From contig VXQO01000145.1 in the NCBI GenBank assembly GCA_009838975.1, positions 1 to 53,472 of the forward strand: a DNA stretch of 53,472 nt. The letters are read 5' to 3'. This document shows positions 1-34,926 of this stretch, piece by piece. The stretch is from Gemmatimonadota bacterium (GTDB lineage Bacteria > Gemmatimonadota > Gemmatimonadetes > Longimicrobiales > Gaopeijiaceae). Position numbers and translations under genes: made by a program. The notes beneath the pieces are model-generated. The model saw only the letters and a list, made by a program, of their open reading frames with translations. It did no database searches and had not been told where the DNA came from. Every line of letters starts with the position of its first letter. Positions within the stretch are counted from its first letter, which is position 1.

Positions 1-134
1 CCCACCCGGTTCGGAAACCACGCTTGCTCACAACGGGGCGTCCACATATGAACTACCGTGCACACACGCAGCACGAGGTGCCCTCGCATTCCCCTCATTT
101 GGCCTCATTTCCGGCGAACCGGTGGATCAGGTGG
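1..134. other. Non-coding window edge
   Basis: Sequence downstream of the multicopper oxidase stop. I see no credible gene, hairpin or repeat here beyond a short direct repeat of cctcattt near position 100. Confidence 0.5.
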
Positions 135-1895
135 TCAGGGCACCACCGTAAACGACCCCATCATCCCCGCGTCCAAGTGCTCCGCGATGTGGCAGTGGAT
201 CATCCACTCCCCCGGGTTCGACGCTTCCATCAACACGTCGACCGTCGACCCCACGGGCACCAGCACCGTATCCTTCCAGGCGAGATTGCGGTTCTCGACG
301 CCGTCGCGCGACAGCACCAGGAAGCGCTGGCCGTGCAGGTGGATGGGGTGATGCATGGGGTGAAACGCGTCCGCGTCGTTGCGCAGCCGGATCTTGACCA
401 CGTCGCCGAGCCGGAAGCGCCAGTCGATCTCGGCGTTTTCCGTGCCCGCCGCCTCGTCTCGCAGGATCCACCGGACCTCGTTCGACGTCGACAGCCAGTT
501 CATGTTGGGCATGCCGTCCGTCCACTCGACGGGGGGCCGGTAGATCGTGTCGATGGAAATGAACTGCTGAACCAGGATGGGCAGCCCCTCGATGTCGACG
601 GTCAGGAGCAGCGCGTGGTCGACGGGCCGGTCGAAGTGCGGGCGGAATTCCGCAAGCTCGGCTTCGAGAACCGCATCGGTTCGCATGATGGAGTGGGAGG
701 AGAGAAGAGCGTCGGCCTCTTCGACCGCAGGTCCTTCGACAACGACGGCGCCCAGGGTGTCGACGGCGGCGTAGAAAGTGCCGCGCATGTGGTCGACGAC
801 CTGGACCTGGTTCAGTAGCGCGTAGGTGCCCGCGGCGGGGAACCGCACCTCGACGATGTAGCGCTCGGCCGGGGAAATGACCAGCGATTCGACCATCATT
901 TCCCGCTGGAAGCGCGACAGGTCGGTACCGACGAGCTTCATGTCGAGCCCGGCGAAGCTGAGGTTGTAGCTGCGCGTGTTCGACACGTTCGTGACGAAGA
1001 AGCGGACGACCTCGCCGGGGCGGACGGTCGCGGCGTAGCGCTCCTCGCCGTTGACCAGCATGACGTTTCCGAAGCGCCCCATGATCGTGAAGTTGGAGGC
1101 GTCGCGCCCGTAGGGGAGCAGTTCGTCGCCGTCGACCAGGAGGTCGTCCACCATGATGAACTCCTCGCGCGTGGCGGGGCCGAAGTAGTCCGCGCGGGCG
1201 GGGTCGACGAACATGTTGCCGTAGAGGCCGCCGTCCTGCTGGATGTCCTCACGCACGTGCGGGTGGTACCAGTAGAGGCCCGGGTCGGGGAAGACGATCT
1301 CGTAGATGAACTCGCCGCCGGGCGGGACGGGTGGCTGGGTGACCTCGGGGACGCCGTCGAAGCGGTTCTCGAGGCGGAGGCCGTGCCAGTGGATCGTGGA
1401 CGGCAGGTCGATTGAGTTCGTGAAGCGGACGACGATGCGCGTGTTCTGGGCGACGCGGAGGAGCGGGCCGGGGTACTGGCCGTTGAAGCCGTACATGACG
1501 AAGGTGCGGCCGCCGATTCTGCGCTTCACGATGCGAGCCTCGATGGCGACCGTGTCCCCGTCGGCGACATGGAGGATCTCGCGCGGGGTGGCCCATGCAA
1601 GCGACGCGGTGTCGACGCCTTCGCCCGGCAGGAAGGGGTCGACGGATGGGCTGACGCTGCGGAGGCCCGGGAGCATCGGGTTGCGCAGCATCATCATGAT
1701 CATGTCGCCGGAGCCGCGGACCGTGTCCATCGACATGGACATGTTCATTGGCATGTTCATGTCCATGCCGCGGGCGCGGGTCGTGTCCTGGGGGGCGGCG
1801 CCGGCGGGAATCGCCCAGGCGGCAGCGAGGACCAGGGCGAGCAATGGCGGAAGTCGGTGGCGACGTTCGATCGAAGTCGTTTGTAATTCCGACAT
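135..1895 (-). CDS. Secreted multicopper oxidase with Met-rich N-terminus
   Basis: 586 residues. A hydrophobic signal segment lies at about 15-34, ending near AGAAPQ. All four copper-ligand blocks are visible: HWHGL near 170, YWYHPHV near 210, HPMHHPIHLHG near 520, and HCHIAEH...GM near 570, which carries the type 1 Cys, His and axial Met. The length fits three-domain laccase/CueO/CopA-type oxidases; the likely role is periplasmic oxidation of Cu(I), other metals or phenolics. Residues 44-56 (MDMNMPMNMSMSM) form a Met-rich strip right after the signal, as in copper-binding tails. The ATG at 1893-1895 has no Shine-Dalgarno and lies inside palindromic sequence, so the transcript may be leaderless, or the start may differ slightly. 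The family is certain; the substrate is unknown. Confidence 0.93.
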   Translation of the reverse strand: MSELQTTSIERRHRLPPLLALVLAAAWAIPAGAAPQDTTRARGMDMNMPMNMSMSMDTVRGSGDMIMMMLRNPMLPGLRSVSPSVDPFLPGEGVDTASLAWATPREILHVADGDTVAIEARIVKRRIGGRTFVMYGFNGQYPGPLLRVAQNTRIVVRFTNSIDLPSTIHWHGLRLENRFDGVPEVTQPPVPPGGEFIYEIVFPDPGLYWYHPHVREDIQQDGGLYGNMFVDPARADYFGPATREEFIMVDDLLVDGDELLPYGRDASNFTIMGRFGNVMLVNGEERYAATVRPGEVVRFFVTNVSNTRSYNLSFAGLDMKLVGTDLSRFQREMMVESLVISPAERYIVEVRFPAAGTYALLNQVQVVDHMRGTFYAAVDTLGAVVVEGPAVEEADALLSSHSIMRTDAVLEAELAEFRPHFDRPVDHALLLTVDIEGLPILVQQFISIDTIYRPPVEWTDGMPNMNWLSTSNEVRWILRDEAAGTENAEIDWRFRLGDVVKIRLRNDADAFHPMHHPIHLHGQRFLVLSRDGVENRNLAWKDTVLVPVGSTVDVLMEASNPGEWMIHCHIAEHLDAGMMGSFTVVP

Positions 1896-17237: not shown

Positions 17238-20200
17238 TCAGCCGTCCGACACGGAAACCGACTTCGCTGCGCTGGCGGTCGTGGGACGACGGCCGGATCC
17301 GTCGCTGTCTGTGACGGAGGCGGATTCGCCGTTCGGGAAGTGATCCTCGATCCTGTTTGCAAAGGGCGAGCTTCGGCGTCGTGCCCGGTGCCGGAATTGC
17401 TCGGAAGCGGCCGATGAACCGTAAACCTCCGCCACATCCGCAGCCTCTTCGTCCGATCCCGTGCCCTCGACGATCGACCGGGCGAGGGACAGGGCCGTGG
17501 CGGTGGTCATGAGCTCCAGGGCGCTGACCTGGTAGTTGAACTGCGTTTGGACAAAGGCGCCCAGTTCGGCGACCGATATCGAGGTGAGCCCGAAGCTCGA
17601 CAATGGCTCGGTCATGTCGCCTTCATCGTGGCCACAGAGTTCGGCCACCTTCGCGGAGATCTGTGCCACGACACTCTCGATGGTCAGATCACCGCCAGCG
17701 TCCACGTCGAACGCCGCCTGATTGTTCAGCAGGCGTCCGTTGCGCATGTAATCGGGAGAATCGACGGACCATGGCGGGTTCGAGAACAGCGCGGTGACCA
17801 GATGGTCATGGCCGGGCATGGTGCGCAGGGCGTAGTCGAGATTGGCAATCGCGAAGTTGGCGCTGACGGTGGTCATGCCGGCCATTCTCATCAATCTCAT
17901 GATGTGGAGGCTGCGCGCCGCCATGCCGACCTCGGTGACCGGGCCCAGGTTGTACGAGAGACCCGGGAGGCCGCGCCGACAACGCCAGGCGGCCAACCCG
18001 TCCAGGTAGGCGCTCGCCCCGCTGTAGTTAATCTGTCCGAGATTGCCGAACGTCGACGCAATGGACGAAAACAGCACGAAGTAGTCCAGATCACACTCGG
18101 CAGTGGCATGGTGCAGATTCAGCGCACCCTGGGCCTTGGGCGCGAACACCCTGCGGAGGGACTCCGGGGATGTATCGAGGAACGAACGATCCTCGAGGGT
18201 TCCAGCGAGGTGGAACACACCCTTCAGCGGTCGCTGCATCCGAGCTACACAGCGCCGGACATCGGCCTCGCTCCGCACATCACCCGCGAAGATGTCGATC
18301 TCGTAGTCCTCGTCCATCTTCGACAGGGTAGTCTTCTGGCGAATCCACTCCAGGTCACGGCTCCTGTCCCGATCCCGGTCCATCAGGGTCAGGTGCCGCG
18401 CTCCCACCGCGATCAGGTAGGGCACGAAGCGCAGGCCAAAGCCGCCCAGGCCGCCTGTCACCAGATAGGTCGCATCGGGGTCGAGGAAGGGCCGTGTATC
18501 GGCGATCCCGAACCCGCGTTCGGTGCCGGCAGGTGGCGCCGTCAGGACCAGCTTCCCCTGGTGCTGGCCGGTAGTCATGAGGCGCAGCGCCCTGGCATAG
18601 TCCCGGTAAGGGGAAGCAGTTAGGGCGGGTGGAGGCACTGCGCCCTCCGCCATCAGGTCCAGACAAGCTTGGGAAAGCATGTGTGACAGGACGGGATCGT
18701 CGAGCATCAGCCGGTCGACATCGATCGCCGCAAAACGGAGATTCTTGCGGAACACGCGCATGCTCAGCGAGTTGTCGGTGTAGATGTCGACCTTGCCGAT
18801 CTCGCAGTGCCAGCCGGAGGGGCGCAGTGCCTTGAGACAGAGCGCGATGTGATGCCCGGCGAGCGAATTGAGCACCACGTCGACGCCCTCGCCGTCCGTA
18901 GCCTCCATCAGATCGTCGTACCACTCGTGGCTGTGCGAGTCGAAGGCCCCGCGGGCGCCCATTGCCAGCAGTTGGTTGCGTTTGCTCTCGTTGCCCGCGG
19001 TGGCGTAGATCTCCGCGCCGACGTGCTTCGCCAGGGCAATGGCGGCCTGTCCGACGCCGCCCATTGCCGAGTGGATGAGGACCCGCTGTCCCTCCCTCAG
19101 CCGGGCCAGGTAAACGAGCGAGTAGTACGCGGTCACATAGACGGACAACGACGACGCGGCCTCTTCCATGCTGATCCGCGGCGGCTTCAGGAAGGCGAGA
19201 TGCTCGTTGACCACGACCCGGTTGCCGATACAACCACCCACCGTGACGGCTACCTCGTCACCGACCTGCAGTCGCGTCACGCCATCGCCGATGCGCCGAA
19301 CCACTCCGCTGCCCTCTATACCCACTTCGCGTCCCAGCGCCGAGCGCTCGTAGGCCATGGCGGGGAGAAGGCCCAGGGTAACCATCACGTCGCGGAAGTT
19401 CAACGCAGCTGCAGCGACCTCGATCTCCACTTCGTCCGGGCCCGGCGGGGGCACTTCGCAGGTCGTCATCTGCAGCCCGCTGACCTGGCCGGGGTTGTCC
19501 AGGCGGAGCCGGTAGGTTGGATCTTCGCCCACGGGGACAAGGGGGGCGCGCTCCCGCAGGCTGATCACCCGTGGGGCCCAGAGCCGTCCCTCCCACACCG
19601 CAAGTTCGCGCTCGCGCAGGTCGATCCGGTCCAGAAGGGCCAGGGTTTCCAGATCGCTCTTCGCACCCAGGTCCACGAGCCGGAAATCGATTCCGGTATC
19701 CTCGGCAAGGAGCTCCAGGGCGATGCTGCGGACCGCTCCCCAGAGGGCGCTGCCGCGTGGATCGTCCACGTGGCGGACGGCCCCGCGCGTCACGATGGTC
19801 AGGCGGCAGTTGCGGGTCGCGTTCTCCAGGCGGAATGGGGCCACGGCCTGAAGGAACGAGACCAGCTGCCAAACCGCCCGTTCTCCGGTGGGATCCGTGG
19901 GATCCGGGCCGCAGAAGATGTCGATCGCCGCCAGATCGGCCGCCGAGGGCCATTCCTCCAGCGTCATGAAGTTGCCATCCTCGTAACTGGCCCACGGAAC
20001 CTGGTGGACCCCGGGTGAATCGAGCAGGGCCGCCCAGTCCGAAGCCCAGCTGTCCGGCTCGCCGATCACCCACCGTGGCCGTGGAGTTTCGGTCGCGCCG
20101 TCGGTGTCGAGCGGGTCGCCATGGCGCTGCGGCGCCTGCAGGAGCGTCGTGCGCTTCCCCGCATGCACGCTCGTCCAGCCCTCGCCCGGATCAACCGCCT

Positions 20201-23200
20201 CGCCGTCGGCGTGGAAGACCACCGCGAGCCCCCCCGCAACGGTCAGCCGATGCAGGAGTGCCCACTGCTCCGGCCCGAACGCCGCAGCGTCGGAGTGCAG
20301 GAACAGGATCTCGGCGGCGGCGGGACGCAGCAGGCCCGAGGTCATCTCCAGGTCCTGTACCTGCTCCGACATCGGATCGAGCGGCGCAAAACGAAGCGCG
20401 GCCTCTCGATGATTGAAGGCCTCGTAGTGGGCCCGTGCGCACTCCTCGTCCTTGCCGAGAATCCAGAACTCGGTCTGGGCGTCCGGACCCGAAAGATACT
20501 TAATACATTTGTTTAGTATTGTGGAGTCGGGCTCTCGTTCACCGGCCACCTCGATCACATGGCACGAATAGCGGGCCCCGAGAGTCCCCTGCTCGAACGC
20601 GGCGATCAGCGCGGTGGGATCGACCTCTCCGTCCCGGATTGCATTGCCGATTGACGGCGCCGGAGGCACGAACCTGGGCTGCCATGCCACGACGTGCTTG
20701 CTGTCCGGTACGTCGCTCCAGCGGGGATTGCTGTTGAATGAGTGGTACTCGCCGATGTGTGCGATCAGGTGTCCCGTGGCGCGATCGTAGAAGCTGAGTC
20801 GGCCGATGTAGAGTTCGCCGAGCGGCTTGGTGTACTGGCCGCGTTCGTCCACATCGTACCATTCACCCGTATCCACGAGGTGACAGGCGATCCGCGGTCC
20901 CGTCGGGGGACGCAGGAAGGTCACGTTACAGGCCCGCTGCGGCATGGAGAAGAAATCGGGCAGGCGCATCAGGTAGCGCAGGAAGATCTGCAATCCGCCG
21001 TCCGTCAGCGGCGGATACATGACATAGCCCTCCTCCTGGGCGGTCACCCACAGCTCTTCATCGACTTCTATGTCGAGCAGCATGTCCGTCGAGTTGGCAT
21101 CCATGTCGATCTGCTTGACGCTGCGGAACTCGGGGCCGAACTCGAAGTCGTCGCCTACGACCGCTTCGATCTGTTCGTAGAACTCGTCACCGGTGCCCAG
21201 GGGCTCGGGATCGAAAGCCGAGGCCAACACCTCGTCCAGTGTCGCGTAGGCGTCGAGCGGATGATCGGCATCCACCCGATGGACCCGGCCCCGGCAGTGC
21301 AGCGTACCCGAGTCGTCGTCTTCGAAGGAACGGGACGAAATGGTGAAGGTGAACTGGTCCGGAGCGTTGGGAATCTGAAAAAGGGCGGTCTGTAGCCGCA
21401 CCGGCGTCCTGCCCACGGGAGTGTGCTGCAGGAACTCGATCTCCTCGATGTTGATGGGGTTCCCGGAGAACGCCTGGAGGAGCAGTTCGATGTAGCCCGC
21501 GGCCGGAATGATGGGCGCGCGATGAACCCGGTGGTCGGTCAGCCAGGGGAAATCCTGCTCGGAAAGGCGCGCCTCGAAGAGAATGTGATCGCACGGTACC
21601 CTGTGGCCGACCAGCGGCCCGTGCGAATATTGGCCGCGCTGGACGAACATCTCGTCGTCGACCAGGTCGTCGTGGGTGGTCGTTTGTTCCTGCGGATGCC
21701 CCGGGAGGAGGTGGGCGATGGGTTCCGGGCGCGGATACTGGGAAGCGAAGTCCAGTTCGACGCCGTTCCGGTACAGGGCTCCCAGGGCTTCCTGGAATCC
21801 GAGACACGCATCCTGGTCCTTCATCAGCGTGGGGATACAGACCGGGACCGAAGAGGCGCCTTCCACGCACTGCCGGATCAGCGGCTGCAGCGCGCCGTGC
21901 GGCGCGATCTCCAGAACAACATCGGGACGGTAGTCCCTGACCACGGTCTCCATCGCCGCAGCGAAGTGCACCGGCTGGCGGATGTTGGACCACCAGTACT
22001 CGGCGTCCAGGCGCCGCGTCGCCGTTCCGGTCACCGAAGACACCATCGGAACGTGTGCGTCGAAAGCGCATGCGTCGAGGAAGGACAGGGAGGCGATCAC
22101 GTCGTCGTGCAGCGGGTCCATCGCCGTCGAGTGGAACGCAATGTTGCCGGGGATCAGCCGATTCTGCAGGCCGCGGCGCTCGAGTTCCACCAGGACGGGC
22201 TGCAGCGCGGGTTCCTTGCCGCAGACCACGGTGTTGGCAGGCGCGTTCTCGCAGGCAATCTCGACCTGTGGGGCGCGGTGGTTCCTGCGCTCGAACGGAA
22301 CCCGCAACTCCTCCAGCAGCGTCTCCACACCCGGCCGGTCCAGGCCGATCGCGAGCATCCGTCCCGAGCCGGCCACTCTCTGCTGAAGGGTGGCGCGGTG
22401 ATAGACCAGGTGCGTGGCCTCCGCCAGGGACAGGGCCCCGCTGGCGTAGGCTGCAGCCACCTCGCCCGAGCTGTGTCCGATCACGCAGTCCGGGTGTAGG
22501 CCCCAGGTCGAGAGCAGTTCAACCAGTGCGCACTGAATCATGAAGATCACGGGCTGGGCCAGCTGGACTTCGTTCAGTTCCTCCTGGCTCGCCGCAAAGC
22601 AGGCATCCCGCAGCGATGTCCCGGAGTGCTTCCGCCACTCCTCTTCGACGGCGTCAACCACACGACGGAACACTGGGTCGGCATCGTAGAGCGCGCGCCC
22701 GCATCCCGCCCACTGCGTGCCCTGGCCCGAGAACACCATCGCCACCCGGCGCTCAACTTCTTCCCCGGTGGAGACGTCGGACGGTTCTTCCACGAAAGCG
22801 TCCAACGCCTCTGCGAGCTGTTCACGATCTCGCACGGCGAAAGCGGCCCGTACGGGGAAATGGGTGCGCCTGCGGCTGAGATTGCCCGCAAGTGTGTACA
22901 GGTCGATGTCGCGCCTGGCGAGGATCTCCCCCAGGCTCCGGGCAGCCTCCGCCAGGGCGTTGGTGTTGCGCGCGGACAGCGGAATCATGTATCCGGCGCG
23001 TGGAGCCGGAGGCACCGACCAGGCCCTTGGCCGCTCCGGCCGGTATTCCCTCACCACGCAGTGCCCGTTGGCCCCCCCGAACCCGAATGAATTGATGCCG
23101 ACCACGACCGGGTAATCCGGGAAGGGCTCGCAAGCAGTCTGGACCTGCATGGGGCAGCTATCGAAGTCGATTTCCAGATTCGGAGCCAGAAAGTTTTTCG

Positions 23201-24365
23201 AGATGGGCGCGAAGGTCCGGCGCTGCATCATGAGGATGACTTTCAGCAATGCGGCGCTGAACGCCGCCGCCTCCAGATGCCCCACGTTGCTCTTGACGCT
23301 GGCGACGCGCAGCGGGACATCGCGCTCGACGCCCCCGAAAGCCTGCGCAATCGCGTTTCCTTCGATGCGGTCCCCCACGACGGTGCCGGTCGCATGTGCT
23401 TCGATGTAGTCGAAGTCCTCGGGGCCGAGTCCGGCGCGTGCGCAGGCCGTGCGCATCAGATCGACCTGCGAATGACGGGTGGGTGCGGTGATGTACCGCC
23501 CCTGGGCCATACCCTCGGCGTCGTCGGCGGTCCCGGCCGTGTTCACCGCGGTGGCTTCGATCACGGCGAAGATGTGGTCGCCGTCCCTTTCGGCCACCTC
23601 CAACGGCTTGATTGCAAAGACGAACGCCCCTTCCGCGCGCATGTACCCGTTGGCGTCGGCGTCGAAGGAGTGACACCTGCCATCGGGACTGATGACCCCC
23701 AGAGCGTTGAACGAAGCGCTGCAACGAGCCGATCCAAGGTAGGTGGCGGCCCCCACCAGAGCCTGTTCGCAGTCGCCCTGCCGCATCGCGTTGATGCCCG
23801 TATGAAGAGCGGACAGGGACGCCGAGCAGGCCGTGGAGCACGCGAGCGACGGCCCCATGAGATTGAGGTGGTACGAAATGCGGTTGGCCAGCATCGACGC
23901 GTCGATGCTCAGGATGGAGAACTCGTTGGTCCCGTACAGCGCCCGCCAGTTGGCCGTGGACGCGACCTGGGCCCCGATGAATACGCCCGTGGAACTGTTC
24001 CGAAGTGCGTTCAGATCCCACCCGGCGTGTTCGCAACTCTCCCACGAGCAGCCCAGCAGCATCCGGATCTGCGGATCCATGTACGCCATCTCGTTGCGCG
24101 AGACCCCGAACAGGCCGCTGTCCATCCGCTGCTCGCCCTGGTCACGTATCAACCCTTCGTAGGCACTGCCGAAGCGGCCCGGGCCCGAGAATCCGCCGAT
24201 GGGCTGGTAACCGCGACCGTAGCGGTCGGCTACGGGCTCCCTGACTATCTCGCGTTCGGAGAGGAGCCGCCAGAAGTCGTCGTCGCAGCGGATGCCGCCC
24301 GGCATCCGGTACGCGTACCCGACAATGGCGACGGGATAAGCAGAGTTCAACGGGTCTGATCTCAT
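17238..24365 (-). CDS. Single-module reducing type I polyketide synthase
   Basis: 2375 residues with domain order KS-AT-DH-(linker)-ER-KR-ACP. KS: Cys180 in STACSAS, His324 in EAHATGT and the KSNVGH block. AT: GHSSG with Ser632 and an AFH-type motif suggesting malonyl-CoA. DH: His945 in DHRVHRAPIIP and Asp1122 in TDGGLQ. ER: GGVGQAA near 1767. KR: GGLGGFG near 1969 and Tyr2114 in NYSGASA. ACP: Ser2262 in GLTSIS. A degenerate region lies between DH and ER (about 1250-1560), where a methyltransferase sits in many iterative PKSs; no SAM-binding glycine motif is visible. No thioesterase is present. Departures from consensus are HATGT for HGTGT, Arg for Gly in the DH motif, Ser for Asn in the KR YxxxN, and Thr before the ACP Ser. 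A single complete module suggests iterative synthesis of a reduced, lipid-like chain, as in mono-modular PKSs of sponge symbionts and fungal reducing PKSs. The Ser-rich tail after 2300 may dock to the next protein. Confidence 0.95.
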   Translation of the reverse strand: MRSDPLNSAYPVAIVGYAYRMPGGIRCDDDFWRLLSEREIVREPVADRYGRGYQPIGGFSGPGRFGSAYEGLIRDQGEQRMDSGLFGVSRNEMAYMDPQIRMLLGCSWESCEHAGWDLNALRNSSTGVFIGAQVASTANWRALYGTNEFSILSIDASMLANRISYHLNLMGPSLACSTACSASLSALHTGINAMRQGDCEQALVGAATYLGSARCSASFNALGVISPDGRCHSFDADANGYMRAEGAFVFAIKPLEVAERDGDHIFAVIEATAVNTAGTADDAEGMAQGRYITAPTRHSQVDLMRTACARAGLGPEDFDYIEAHATGTVVGDRIEGNAIAQAFGGVERDVPLRVASVKSNVGHLEAAAFSAALLKVILMMQRRTFAPISKNFLAPNLEIDFDSCPMQVQTACEPFPDYPVVVGINSFGFGGANGHCVVREYRPERPRAWSVPPAPRAGYMIPLSARNTNALAEAARSLGEILARRDIDLYTLAGNLSRRRTHFPVRAAFAVRDREQLAEALDAFVEEPSDVSTGEEVERRVAMVFSGQGTQWAGCGRALYDADPVFRRVVDAVEEEWRKHSGTSLRDACFAASQEELNEVQLAQPVIFMIQCALVELLSTWGLHPDCVIGHSSGEVAAAYASGALSLAEATHLVYHRATLQQRVAGSGRMLAIGLDRPGVETLLEELRVPFERRNHRAPQVEIACENAPANTVVCGKEPALQPVLVELERRGLQNRLIPGNIAFHSTAMDPLHDDVIASLSFLDACAFDAHVPMVSSVTGTATRRLDAEYWWSNIRQPVHFAAAMETVVRDYRPDVVLEIAPHGALQPLIRQCVEGASSVPVCIPTLMKDQDACLGFQEALGALYRNGVELDFASQYPRPEPIAHLLPGHPQEQTTTHDDLVDDEMFVQRGQYSHGPLVGHRVPCDHILFEARLSEQDFPWLTDHRVHRAPIIPAAGYIELLLQAFSGNPINIEEIEFLQHTPVGRTPVRLQTALFQIPNAPDQFTFTISSRSFEDDDSGTLHCRGRVHRVDADHPLDAYATLDEVLASAFDPEPLGTGDEFYEQIEAVVGDDFEFGPEFRSVKQIDMDANSTDMLLDIEVDEELWVTAQEEGYVMYPPLTDGGLQIFLRYLMRLPDFFSMPQRACNVTFLRPPTGPRIACHLVDTGEWYDVDERGQYTKPLGELYIGRLSFYDRATGHLIAHIGEYHSFNSNPRWSDVPDSKHVVAWQPRFVPPAPSIGNAIRDGEVDPTALIAAFEQGTLGARYSCHVIEVAGEREPDSTILNKCIKYLSGPDAQTEFWILGKDEECARAHYEAFNHREAALRFAPLDPMSEQVQDLEMTSGLLRPAAAEILFLHSDAAAFGPEQWALLHRLTVAGGLAVVFHADGEAVDPGEGWTSVHAGKRTTLLQAPQRHGDPLDTDGATETPRPRWVIGEPDSWASDWAALLDSPGVHQVPWASYEDGNFMTLEEWPSAADLAAIDIFCGPDPTDPTGERAVWQLVSFLQAVAPFRLENATRNCRLTIVTRGAVRHVDDPRGSALWGAVRSIALELLAEDTGIDFRLVDLGAKSDLETLALLDRIDLRERELAVWEGRLWAPRVISLRERAPLVPVGEDPTYRLRLDNPGQVSGLQMTTCEVPPPGPDEVEIEVAAAALNFRDVMVTLGLLPAMAYERSALGREVGIEGSGVVRRIGDGVTRLQVGDEVAVTVGGCIGNRVVVNEHLAFLKPPRISMEEAASSLSVYVTAYYSLVYLARLREGQRVLIHSAMGGVGQAAIALAKHVGAEIYATAGNESKRNQLLAMGARGAFDSHSHEWYDDLMEATDGEGVDVVLNSLAGHHIALCLKALRPSGWHCEIGKVDIYTDNSLSMRVFRKNLRFAAIDVDRLMLDDPVLSHMLSQACLDLMAEGAVPPPALTASPYRDYARALRLMTTGQHQGKLVLTAPPAGTERGFGIADTRPFLDPDATYLVTGGLGGFGLRFVPYLIAVGARHLTLMDRDRDRSRDLEWIRQKTTLSKMDEDYEIDIFAGDVRSEADVRRCVARMQRPLKGVFHLAGTLEDRSFLDTSPESLRRVFAPKAQGALNLHHATAECDLDYFVLFSSIASTFGNLGQINYSGASAYLDGLAAWRCRRGLPGLSYNLGPVTEVGMAARSLHIMRLMRMAGMTTVSANFAIANLDYALRTMPGHDHLVTALFSNPPWSVDSPDYMRNGRLLNNQAAFDVDAGGDLTIESVVAQISAKVAELCGHDEGDMTEPLSSFGLTSISVAELGAFVQTQFNYQVSALELMTTATALSLARSIVEGTGSDEEAADVAEVYGSSAASEQFRHRARRRSSPFANRIEDHFPNGESASVTDSDGSGRRPTTASAAKSVSVSDG

Positions 24366-28146: not shown

Positions 28147-29259
28147 CTACGACTTCGGAATCTCCTTGTCCGGGTCCACGAACGGCTTGCGTACCACCAC
28201 CACTTCCCGCTCCCCGTCCGGCGTGGCCACCCGCAGTCGCGTCCCCGACTCCGCGAACGCCGTCGGCACCATCGCGTAGCCGATATTACGCTGCAACCGC
28301 GGCGACCACACCGCCGATGTGACGAAGCCGATCGCCTCGCCGTCCGCACCGCCCGCGATCTCGACACCCGCCAGCCGCCGCCCTGGCCCCTCCGCCGCGA
28401 TTCGCGCCAGCGCCTCACGCCCGATGAAATCCCCCTCCTGGCCGTGGTCCACCTGCCACCCCAGCCCGACTTCGTACGGATTCGTGTCCAGCGTCATGTC
28501 GATCCCGTAGTTCAGGATCCCCGCCTCGATCCGCCGAATGTCCGACGGCCCCGTGGGCGCGATTCCCAGATCGGCGCCCGCGTCCATCACCCTGTCCCAC
28601 AGCTCCACCCCCCGGCTCCCGTCCCGCAGGTAGATCTCGTAGCCGACCTCGCCGCTCCACCCGGTCCGGGTCACCACCACCGGGATGCCGTCCAGGTCCG
28701 TCTCCGCAAAAAAGTAGTAACGCAGCCCCGCGACCCCGTCCCCGAACAGCCTCCGCACCACCTCCTTCGACTTCGGCCCCTGCACCTGCATCGGCGACAC
28801 ATCGGGCTCGCACAGCCGCACGTCCAGCCCCGAATTCAGCGCCACGCCCTTCGCCCACAGCAGCACGTCGCTGTCCGCCAGCGCCAGCCAGAAGTGGTTC
28901 TCGCCCAGCCGCAGCAGCACGGGATCGTTTACGATGCCCCCGTCGTCGGCCGTGATCAGCACGTACTTGCCCTGCCCGACCGCGCACTTCGACAGGTCGC
29001 GCGGCGTCAGCAGGTTCGTGAACTCGAACGCGTCCGGTCCGGTGATCTCGACCTGCCGCTCCACGCTCACGTCCCACACCGTCACCCCGGTCCGCAGCCG
29101 CTCGTACTCGGCGTGCAGGTCGTCGTACCGCGTGGGCAGAAACATGTGGTTGTAGACCGTGTAGGCGCGACAGCCGGCGCGCAGGGTGGCGTCGAAATAC
29201 GGCGAACGGCGGAGCCGGGCCCCGCGCTGGATGAGGGCCATGTCGAAGGTGGGGGTCAT
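28147..29259 (-). CDS. DmdA-like aminomethyltransferase/demethylase
   Basis: 370 residues of the GcvT/DmdA family, which moves methyl or methylene groups to tetrahydrofolate. The N-terminus RRSPYFDATLRAGCRAYTVYNHM and the block VSVERQVEITGPDAF...TPRDL strongly recall DMSP demethylase (DmdA) sequences rather than glycine-cleavage T proteins. DGGIVNDPV, EPDVSPMQVQGPKS and TRTGWSGEVGYEI are the folate-domain core motifs. It is the last gene of a five-gene minus-strand operon; GGGAGA precedes the ATG. DMSP is one possible substrate, but related proteins act on other methylated thioethers and amines, and the flavoprotein neighbours do not occur with classic dmdA. Confidence 0.87.
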   Translation of the reverse strand: MTPTFDMALIQRGARLRRSPYFDATLRAGCRAYTVYNHMFLPTRYDDLHAEYERLRTGVTVWDVSVERQVEITGPDAFEFTNLLTPRDLSKCAVGQGKYVLITADDGGIVNDPVLLRLGENHFWLALADSDVLLWAKGVALNSGLDVRLCEPDVSPMQVQGPKSKEVVRRLFGDGVAGLRYYFFAETDLDGIPVVVTRTGWSGEVGYEIYLRDGSRGVELWDRVMDAGADLGIAPTGPSDIRRIEAGILNYGIDMTLDTNPYEVGLGWQVDHGQEGDFIGREALARIAAEGPGRRLAGVEIAGGADGEAIGFVTSAVWSPRLQRNIGYAMVPTAFAESGTRLRVATPDGEREVVVVRKPFVDPDKEIPKS

Positions 29260-32526: not shown

Positions 32527-33744
32527 TCAGCCCCGCTTGCGCGCCGGGTCGAAGAAAGGCGTGCCGACCACGCGCGCGGGGACCCTGTGGCGCACGAACT
32601 CCACGGTCAGCTCGACCTCGATGCGGCTGCCCTGTTCCGCGAAGTCGCGGCGGATGGTGGCGAGCGCGATGTACTTCTTGAGGATCGGCGAGAAGGTGGC
32701 GCTGGTGATGTAGCCGATCTGCCTGCCGGCGCCACCGCCCTGGCGCGCCGCACCCGCGTAGATAGGCACGGCATCGCGCGAGGCCCGGCCTGCCACCAGC
32801 GGCGGCAGACCCACCGCGGCAAAGCGCTTTTCGATGCCCGGCCAGTCGGCCTCGAGACCCGCAAGCGCCCACTCCGACGGAGTGGCCGCTTCCCGCTCGA
32901 GCGCCTTTTGGCCCACGAAATCGCGGCTTGGCCGCGGCTGGACCGTCCACCCGAGGCCGGCCTCGTACGGCGACGACTTGCGCGACTCGATCAGCGCCGT
33001 CCAGCTCGACACGTAGTCAACCTCCTTGAGCAGCAGGCCGGCTTCGATGCGCGCCACGTCCAGGGCGTCGAGACCGGCCGGCGCGAGACCGAAGCCCCGG
33101 CCCGTCTCCACGAGGGCGTCCCACACGGCGAGCGCGTGCTCGGGCGCGAGCCAGATCTCGTAGCCCAGGTCGCCCGTGTAGCCCGTTCGGGTGATCGTGA
33201 CCGGGGCCGCGCCGATGTGGCCCTCGGCCAGCGCGAAGTACGGGAGCGCGGCGATGTCCGCGCCGGTCACGAGCCGGGCGAGGATGTCCCGCGAGGTGGG
33301 GCCCTGGAGCGCGAGCGCCGCGAGGTCGAGGGTGACGTCGCGCACGGCCGCGTCCATCCCGAGCCCGCAGTCCTGGAACCAGCGCAGACAGGGGTCGGCG
33401 GCCGTGATGCGGAACATGTCGGCGCCCAGTCGCTGCACGGTGCCGTCGTCGATCAGCTTGCCGGCCTCGTCGCACCAGGGCGTATAGAGCACCTGCTCTT
33501 CCGCGCAACAAAAAACGTTGCGCGTCACCAGGCGGTCCACGAGCGCGGCCGCGTCAGCCCCCGTAACCTCGTACTTGCGCAGCGGGGAGATGTCGAAGAG
33601 CGCCGCCCCGCTGCGCACGGCATAGTACTCGTACTCGTGGCCGGGCTCGTAGCTGAGCGCGGCGGCGTAGCCGGACCAGTTGCGCCACCGGCGGCTGCGG
33701 CAGAGGGCGGTGGTGCGCAGGTGGAAGGGGGTCTCGAGGAGCAT
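32527..33744 (-). CDS. GcvT-family aminomethyltransferase
   Basis: 405 residues. GcvT/dimethylglycine-type features: SPLRKYEVTGADAAALVDRLVTRNV, DEAGKLIDDGTV, LALQGPTSRDIL, TRTGYTGDLGYEIW, GLDALDVARIEAGLLL and KSSPYEAGLGWTV; the C-terminal GCV_T_C barrel runs to about 400. It resembles aminomethyltransferases that accept CH2 groups from glycine, sarcosine or dimethylglycine. No gcvH or gcvP is nearby, so it is probably not part of the glycine cleavage system. It is second in the minus-strand operon, 30 bases after the oxidase gene. Product: 5,10-methylene- or methyl-THF (family knowledge). Confidence 0.9.
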   Translation of the reverse strand: MLLETPFHLRTTALCRSRRWRNWSGYAAALSYEPGHEYEYYAVRSGAALFDISPLRKYEVTGADAAALVDRLVTRNVFCCAEEQVLYTPWCDEAGKLIDDGTVQRLGADMFRITAADPCLRWFQDCGLGMDAAVRDVTLDLAALALQGPTSRDILARLVTGADIAALPYFALAEGHIGAAPVTITRTGYTGDLGYEIWLAPEHALAVWDALVETGRGFGLAPAGLDALDVARIEAGLLLKEVDYVSSWTALIESRKSSPYEAGLGWTVQPRPSRDFVGQKALEREAATPSEWALAGLEADWPGIEKRFAAVGLPPLVAGRASRDAVPIYAGAARQGGGAGRQIGYITSATFSPILKKYIALATIRRDFAEQGSRIEVELTVEFVRHRVPARVVGTPFFDPARKRG

Positions 33745-33774: not shown

Positions 33775-34926
33775 TCAGGCATGCATCGCGGAAAAAAGCG
33801 CCTGGTGGGATGTCACGATGCGCTCCAGGGCCTCCTGGTCGGGTTCCAGCGACCACTCCCCGCGCTCGGCGGTACCTCCCAGCACGATCCCGTCGCTGCG
33901 CGGCTGCATGTGGATGCCGAGCCCGCCGCGGGAAGGCCCGGGTCCCCCGAAGGTTCCGTAGTCGACTTCGGGCTGGGGCACCAGCACGGTCAGCTGGCCC
34001 TTCACGGGGACCAGTTCGGCGTCACCGAAGAGATCACGCGCCCCGAGGCCCGTGCAGTTGATCACGAGGGCCTCTTCCAGCGCCACCAGTTCGCTCGGCT
34101 CGGTGAACTTGCGGATGACGATGCGTCCGCCGAAGTCGATGACGTCGCGCACGAGAGCCTCGAGGTAGATCGAGGGCTCGATGCGCATCTGGGTGCGGCG
34201 GGTCGCGTAGCGGGTCGGGAAGGGGTGCTCGCCGGGGCCGAGCCGGGTCGTGCCCGTACGCAGGTGCGCCGGAAGCAGCGAAGGGCGCTCCGGCTCACGG
34301 TCTGCCTGTCGCGGGCGGGGCTCGTTGTTGCTCAGTGCAAAGCTGCGGATCCACGACACGCCGTATCCCCGCCCGACCAGGAGCTGCAGCTGGCGGTAGG
34401 AAATCTCGACGGCTTCGCGGAACTGCGCGTCCCAGGCGGGAGTCCGTAGATCGCCGTCGACGAGCCCCGACGTTGGGGTGAAGCCGGCGAGTGACATGTT
34501 CGAGGTCGTGTTCGGGGGCACCGTCGTGGCGTAGATGGTGACCCGGAATCCGCGGCGCTGGAGCTGACGCGCACAGGTGAGCCCCACAACCCCACAGCCG
34601 ATCACCGCCGCGGCGCGGCTGTCGTGTTCGAGGGCCATGTCGGCGGCCATCTGTCCCGTGCCCCACGAAATCGACATGCCCGCGCCCCCGTGGCCGTAGT
34701 TGTGGATCACGGTGGTCCCGCCGAGCCGTTCGGCGCGCAGCACGAATCCGGAGGGTCGATGTGGCCGCAGGCCCACGGTGGTGCGGATGACACGATCCCA
34801 ATCCGCCCGAACCGGTGCCAGAACAAGCGAAGGCCGGTCCACGGACCACGAGCGCACCGAGCACGCGCCCAGCCCGCTCCCGATCAGGCTCATGCCGCCG
34901 ATCTTCAGCATTGTTCTTCGGTCCAC
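33775..34926 (-). CDS. Circularly permuted D-amino-acid-oxidase-like flavoprotein
   Basis: 383 residues from a GTG with GGAGG upstream. MDRRTMLKIGGMSLIGSGLGACS is a Tat-type signal with a possible lipobox Cys22, so it is probably exported. Residues 50-95 (VGLRPHRPSG...VIHNYGHGGAGMSISWG) are normally the C-terminal FAD-binding end of DAO/ThiO-family proteins, yet here they precede the Rossmann ADP-binding motif AAVIGCGVVGLTCARQL (108-122). The protein then runs through the substrate domain (INCTGLGARDLFG, VKGQLTVLVPQ) and ends at GGTAERGEWS. This order is a circular permutation of canonical DAO. It heads the demethylation operon. A D-amino acid or a secondary amine (sarcosine-like) is the likely substrate. 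Confidence 0.85.
   Translation of the reverse strand: MDRRTMLKIGGMSLIGSGLGACSVRSWSVDRPSLVLAPVRADWDRVIRTTVGLRPHRPSGFVLRAERLGGTTVIHNYGHGGAGMSISWGTGQMAADMALEHDSRAAAVIGCGVVGLTCARQLQRRGFRVTIYATTVPPNTTSNMSLAGFTPTSGLVDGDLRTPAWDAQFREAVEISYRQLQLLVGRGYGVSWIRSFALSNNEPRPRQADREPERPSLLPAHLRTGTTRLGPGEHPFPTRYATRRTQMRIEPSIYLEALVRDVIDFGGRIVIRKFTEPSELVALEEALVINCTGLGARDLFGDAELVPVKGQLTVLVPQPEVDYGTFGGPGPSRGGLGIHMQPRSDGIVLGGTAERGEWSLEPDQEALERIVTSHQALFSAMHA

Follow-up and report, generated by a model that had tools for sequence, protein, structure and literature searches.

A DAO-type flavoprotein gene with two parts in reversed order

The locus described here raises the question whether a flavoprotein oxidase can occur naturally in circularly permuted form, with the end of its chain placed ahead of the FAD-binding fold. 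The gene lies in a stretch of 53,472 nucleotides (the window; contig VXQO01000145.1 of assembly GCA_009838975.1, from a Gemmatimonadota bacterium), and an earlier note had described its product as a Tat-exported, circularly permuted D-amino-acid oxidase without giving the strand. The open reading frame is located on the minus strand (34926..33775), as are all features of the gene described below. It starts with GTG and encodes 383 amino acids, the interval 33775..34926 including the stop codon. Copies with 97% identity are present in two other genomes.

A leader (residues 1–22; 34861..34926) is followed by residues 42–101 (34624..34803), which correspond to the strands and helix at the C-terminus of DAAO and contain the GLRPHRPSG block (GLRPHR at residues 52–57) as well as HNYGHGG (residues 75–81; 34684..34704). 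Only then follow the Rossmann FAD motif GCGVVG (residues 110–115; 34582..34599) and the remainder of the core with LGGTAERGEW (residues 349–358) and a last helix. The core (residues 104–381; 33784..34617) equals about residues 1–269 of DAAO, as judged from alignment of a structure model with pig DAAO (1kif) by VIA-align. The two blocks are thus placed before the Rossmann motif, as had been claimed. The substrate-arginine segment, the YGHGG flavin/substrate loop and the helix following it are N-terminal instead of C-terminal, this helix is connected to the first Rossmann strand by a short joint, and the new termini fall into the loop preceding the arginine strand. An in-frame stop codon is found 6 codons 5’ of the GTG start and the entire stop-to-stop frame comprises only 389 aa, which leaves no room in frame for an overlooked N-terminal Rossmann domain. 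The concern that such a motif might be hidden by an upstream frameshift is not borne out, since none occurs in frame upstream and homologues keep the same order.

Searching the PDB sequences with phmmer aligned residues 102–382 with positions 11–275 of the human DASPO chain (6rkf; i-Evalue 3.9e-16) and, as an independent second block, residues 47–99 with positions 280–335 of the same chain (i-Evalue 4.9e-6). A profile derived from 46 relatives returned the same two reversed blocks on DASPO with stronger scores (1e-24 and 3.1e-10), and the family profile also matched Rasamsonia DAAO (7ct4) in two reversed blocks. Together with the same order in homologues, the two-block match upholds the permutation. 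The assignment to the DAO-type flavoproteins is likewise sound: the window protein scored 117 bits with Pfam model PF01266 (DAO; gathering cut-off 27.9), which was matched by 46 of 46 family members scanned (E 1e-5), while D-amino-acid oxidation as its activity would be a prediction from sequence. As Pfam reports just “DAO”, the permutation is hidden by routine annotation. More specific assignments were rejected. The models for glycine oxidase ThiO (TIGR02352) and D-amino acid dehydrogenase DadA (NF001933) scored 44 and 23.8 bits, compared to curated cut-offs of 250.8 and 383, respectively, and the scores with other NCBIfam models were far below their cut-offs.

The closest known proteins are DASPO (human, 6rkf) and DAAO (pig, 1kif; human, 2du8; Rasamsonia, 7ct4), with which the window protein shares the core fold at 22–28% identity, the GxGxxG motif, the arginine of GxRPxR, the YGHGGxG loop (residues 77–83) and LGGT...W. 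It differs from them by the reversal of the two parts, by the export-type leader and by a histidine at the place of Tyr228. The ThiO, sarcosine oxidase and DadA families belong to the same PF01266 superfamily and fold, but have the ordinary order. Ordinary-order bacterial DAAO homologues from the same phyla and from Actinomycetota (e.g. L155, L076, L149, L168–L186) possess the same motifs with the segment at the C-terminus.

The permuted order is conserved in other bacteria

A survey of homologues had been proposed as a check of the permutation. One genome collection was scanned and contained 56 loci, of which 52 have the permuted order within one open frame; one locus from Actinomycetes (L057) has the ordinary order and three (L054, L055, L043) are incomplete, truncated at contig ends or interrupted by an N-run. 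In an alignment of 46 rows, from which the 97% copies were left out, identity to the window protein ranges from 86% down to 41%. One could suspect a frameshift, a misassembly or a chimeric contig, as the window stems from a draft assembly of 162 contigs. However, the 52 loci sharing the order in one open frame include a relative whose genome is a single contig (G001), and dN/dS values of 0.10–0.22 in 7 of 7 pairs with relatives reflect purifying selection. The homologues and the open frame refute an artefact, to which we assign a vanishingly small probability. The natural circular permutation is real and not a sequencing error, because many other bacteria have retained the gene in this rearranged form.

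A set of 186 loci, many of them redundant and overlapping between searches, comprised 142 permuted, 37 ordinary and 8 partial ORFs. In none of the 179 classified ORFs was the segment present on both sides of the core. Among Gemmatimonadota, a profile survey detected matches in 43 of 200 genomes; 41 are permuted and collinear, and two (G007 and G021) are interrupted, either by a contig end or by an insertion. Matches were found in 34 of 297 Acidobacteriota genomes (26 permuted according to match range or ORF order, 8 ordinary or partial) and in 17 of 149 genomes from the phylum of L049, titled Eremiobacterota and called Vulcanimicrobiota in the taxonomy used (14 near-full, collinear and permuted, 3 fragments). 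The survey of Gammaproteobacteria around L053 yielded 1 of 369 genomes, namely the centre genome itself. In Actinomycetota 40 of 396 genomes had a match, and all 19 newly fetched loci exhibit the ordinary order.

Several observations concern individual genomes. Several MAGs titled Gammaproteobacteria (L007–L010) look like Gemmatimonadota, their ORF lengths matching genomes of the window's own family. Three or four permuted-type matches per genome were present in the Acidobacteriota G264, G476 and G500. A strongly diverged permuted clade of the same phylum (L141–L147) carries CLRP in place of GLRP and an altered TTSN motif, and may act on another substrate. In the single-contig relative G021 the permuted oxidase gene (L075; ORF of 558 aa) runs to about residue 119 and then passes into an unrelated frame resembling, by eye, a PD-(D/E)XK transposase-type protein; this is probably a pseudogene made by insertion.

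The structure model departs from the ordinary DAAO topology

The AlphaFold2 model of the window protein reached a mean pLDDT of 87.1 and a pTM of 0.85. The moved segment is among its most confident parts, with block means of about 94–98 pLDDT, and forms strands 46–56, 62–68 and 71–77 as well as helix 80–98, which runs into the first Rossmann strand (residues 105–109). When compared by VIA-align, whose rows were drawn solely from Foldseek's own matches so that families absent from the rows are not excluded, residues 104..380 of the model superimposed on residues 1..269 of pig DAAO (257 residues, rmsd 2.7, Z 21.7), the rest of pig DAAO being left unmatched. As a control, the ordinary-order homologue L155 was predicted and aligned in the same way. 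In this case, residues 6..321 matched 1..335 of 1kif, that is the full length, unlike the window protein (315 residues, rmsd 1.7, Z 41.7), and the corresponding elements are located at the chain end (strands 265–285 and 290–297, helix 301–320), following helix 243–256. Accordingly, the earlier note's reservation that models might reveal ordinary DAO topology can be set aside: the model lacks the ordinary order and the control has it. Z-scores of the permuted model on pig DAAO and DASPO (21.7–22.5) are about half of those of the control (41.7–42.4), which reflects in part the inability of a sequential aligner to follow the moved piece and in part true divergence. From pLDDT, the order of secondary structure elements and pTM, rather than from superposition, we infer that the moved segment packs in its old place.

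The order changed once in the tree

For phylogenetic analysis the two parts were aligned separately and set in one order, and 178 rows were reduced to 104 by dropping near-copies. In the resulting tree (75 permuted and 29 ordinary proteins) the order changes once, on a branch with a support of 100/97; the profiles used for trimming were built from permuted proteins and may put the ordinary rows, three of which are long branches, at a disadvantage. All of the 200 bootstrap trees agree on a single change, as does a preliminary, quickly built tree of 93 rows. Apart from this one change, the order is conserved. DAAO, DASPO and the glycine and sarcosine oxidases have the ordinary order. As the root was not inferred, the direction of the change rests on these enzymes and on the full-length match of the control.

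Counted from a conserved Trp in the moved segment to GxGxxG, the joint is 22 residues long in 54 of the 74 permuted representatives, and the 29 ordinary proteins have a median of 16 residues from the same Trp to the chain end. This is about what plain tail-to-head joining would leave. The permuted gene likely arose from two copies that were fused in frame after duplication and whose outer halves were then lost, a course that left no surviving intermediate among the 179 ORFs mentioned above.

The permuted proteins carry a putative Tat leader

The window protein starts with MDRRTMLKIGG, comprising the twin-arginine motif DRRTMLK (RR at residues 3–4), and a lipobox (GLGAC) ends the leader with Cys22. 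In the family alignment R3 is invariant, and R4 and C22 are nearly so. The Tat-type leader with a probable lipobox, as put forward in the earlier note, is therefore a conserved trait of the family, and export and lipidation are predictions from these motifs. By the pattern used, 70 of 75 permuted representatives have a twin-arginine leader and 5 lack RR. Loci L004 and L060 were left out of alignment A1; their script-chosen start falls inside the leader. A strict lipobox is present in 54 of the 75 representatives. By eye, the Cys of several others lies in a near-lipobox; many members from the phylum of L049 exhibit AxA-like cleavage sites in place of the lipobox.

In alignment A2, the ten ordinary proteins start a few residues before the Rossmann strand and lack a leader. 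Most ordinary cores have no clear leader upstream, their true starts not being fixed. RR occurs in 10 of 29 ordinary loci, but this count takes in the whole upstream reading frame, untranslated parts too, and does not indicate a leader. Judged by the RR leaders of the permuted set and by the A2 chains starting at the Rossmann strand, permutation and predicted export appear to go together in this sample. The link may be causal, as permutation would provide a free chain start at the surface for leader and anchor. Permutation is unnecessary for export in the wider superfamily, since the relative 3dme, a “conserved exported protein” according to its PDB title, was aligned in ordinary order.

The active site is largely retained

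The signature of bacterial DAAO, GxRPxR plus YGHGGxG as given in PMC9844085, is complete in the window protein and merely displaced; the text of that paper contains no word beginning with “permut”. For human DAAO, PMC6279847 names three substrate contacts: Arg283 and Tyr228, which bind the carboxylate, and Gly313, which binds the amine. By alignment, Arg54 (34765..34767) occupies the place of Arg283; all 81 permuted and all 12 ordinary representatives have Arg here. Gly81, which we take to be the equivalent of Gly313, is conserved in 80 of the 81 permuted proteins, and the glycines of GxGxxG are invariant in all 81. The place of Tyr228 is presumably occupied by His339 (33910..33912) according to sequence alignments, so that the tyrosine typical of DAAO and DASPO is missing from the window protein. 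Among permuted representatives this position is His in 38, Tyr in 23 and another residue or a gap in 20 of 81, whereas Tyr is found in 11 of 12 ordinary ones.

Retention of two of the three contacts, both at the front of the chain, and drift of the third favour an amino-acid substrate bearing a carboxylate. Given His at the Tyr228 place and the variation across the family, a substrate other than a D-amino acid is possible. The same variation, along with CLRP and the altered TTSN motif of the diverged clade, might even indicate a periplasmic protein that still binds flavin but no longer oxidises amino acids and fulfils another redox or binding role. However, the near-complete conservation of Arg54, Gly81 and the GxGxxG glycines argues against such a loss, which we consider quite improbable.

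We regard it as probable that the window protein belongs to a natural, circularly permuted branch of the DAAO fold and is a predicted exported, usually lipid-anchored flavoenzyme oxidising an amino acid. Such a protein would fold around FAD in the cytoplasm, be exported in folded state through Tat and, in most members, be anchored by a lipid at the Cys ending the leader. In the periplasm it would oxidise its substrate, a D-amino acid or a similar amino acid, by transferring a hydride from it to FAD; the carboxylate would be held by Arg54 and the amine would lie near Gly81, and the electrons might be passed to O2 or to the membrane. Tentatively, one may go further: a single ancient permutation, the first natural one known in this fold, may have made the whole exported DAAO branch. 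As the chain would no longer begin in the buried Rossmann strand, its start could carry a signal and a lipid anchor, which would yield an amino-acid oxidase or dehydrogenase tethered to the membrane in the periplasm of Gemmatimonadota, Acidobacteriota and Vulcanimicrobiota.

A search of one open-access library brought up no description of a natural permutation in the DAO fold. PMC11334425 presents circularly permuted multi-FMN-bind1 proteins, a natural permutation in an extracytosolic flavoprotein as here, but in an unrelated covalent-FMN domain that does not have the DAO fold. In the present family two of the three human DAAO substrate contacts (Arg283, Gly313) precede the FAD fold in the chain and yet the site is kept. 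The family offers a natural test of whether the Rossmann strand must be made first for DAAO folding and FAD uptake, and of whether permutation and Tat export go together; it may also supply exported, anchored oxidases.

Neighbouring genes are shared among close relatives

In the window, the oxidase gene is surrounded by genes for GcvT-like, CrtI-like and DUF2891 proteins and for two proteins of beta-lactamase fold. A GcvT-like gene (33744..32527) lies directly downstream, followed by those for two CrtI-like oxidoreductases and a DmdA-like protein; the GcvT-fold proteins encoded at 28147–29259 and 32527–33744 (both minus strand) thus flank the two oxidoreductases. One of the GcvT-fold proteins scored 383.6 with the DMSP demethylase model (cut-off 410), and the other is similar to the C-terminal portions of TMAO demethylase and sarcosine oxidase alpha. 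Together with His at the Tyr228 equivalent, the adjoining TMAO demethylase/sarcosine oxidase alpha-like protein and the DmdA-like one further on could suggest that the permuted enzyme acts on N-methylated amino acids or amines of the sarcosine or dimethylglycine type, its GcvT-like neighbours serving in one-carbon transfer. However, GcvT1 is found beside the oxidase in 11 of the loci listed (those up to L058 and those from L112 onwards), all close relatives and including the window's own copy (L001) and a duplicate pair (L002/L058). Moreover, the GcvT-like protein lacks a leader by eye while the oxidase has one, and among solved proteins DASPO and DAAO, rather than sarcosine oxidase, come closest in sequence and fold. 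We therefore consider an N-methyl substrate unlikely and prefer an exported amino-acid oxidase of the DAAO type.

Being restricted to close relatives, the GcvT arrangement neither defines the family nor assigns its substrate, and a function based on an operon was rejected for the same reason. Clustering of neighbouring ORFs yielded no partner gene common to the family and returned mostly shadow ORFs of the oxidase. Elsewhere in the window (17238–24365, minus strand) a type I polyketide synthase of 2375 aa is encoded, whose best NCBIfam match is a mycobacterial Pks2-type model, scoring under its cut-off.
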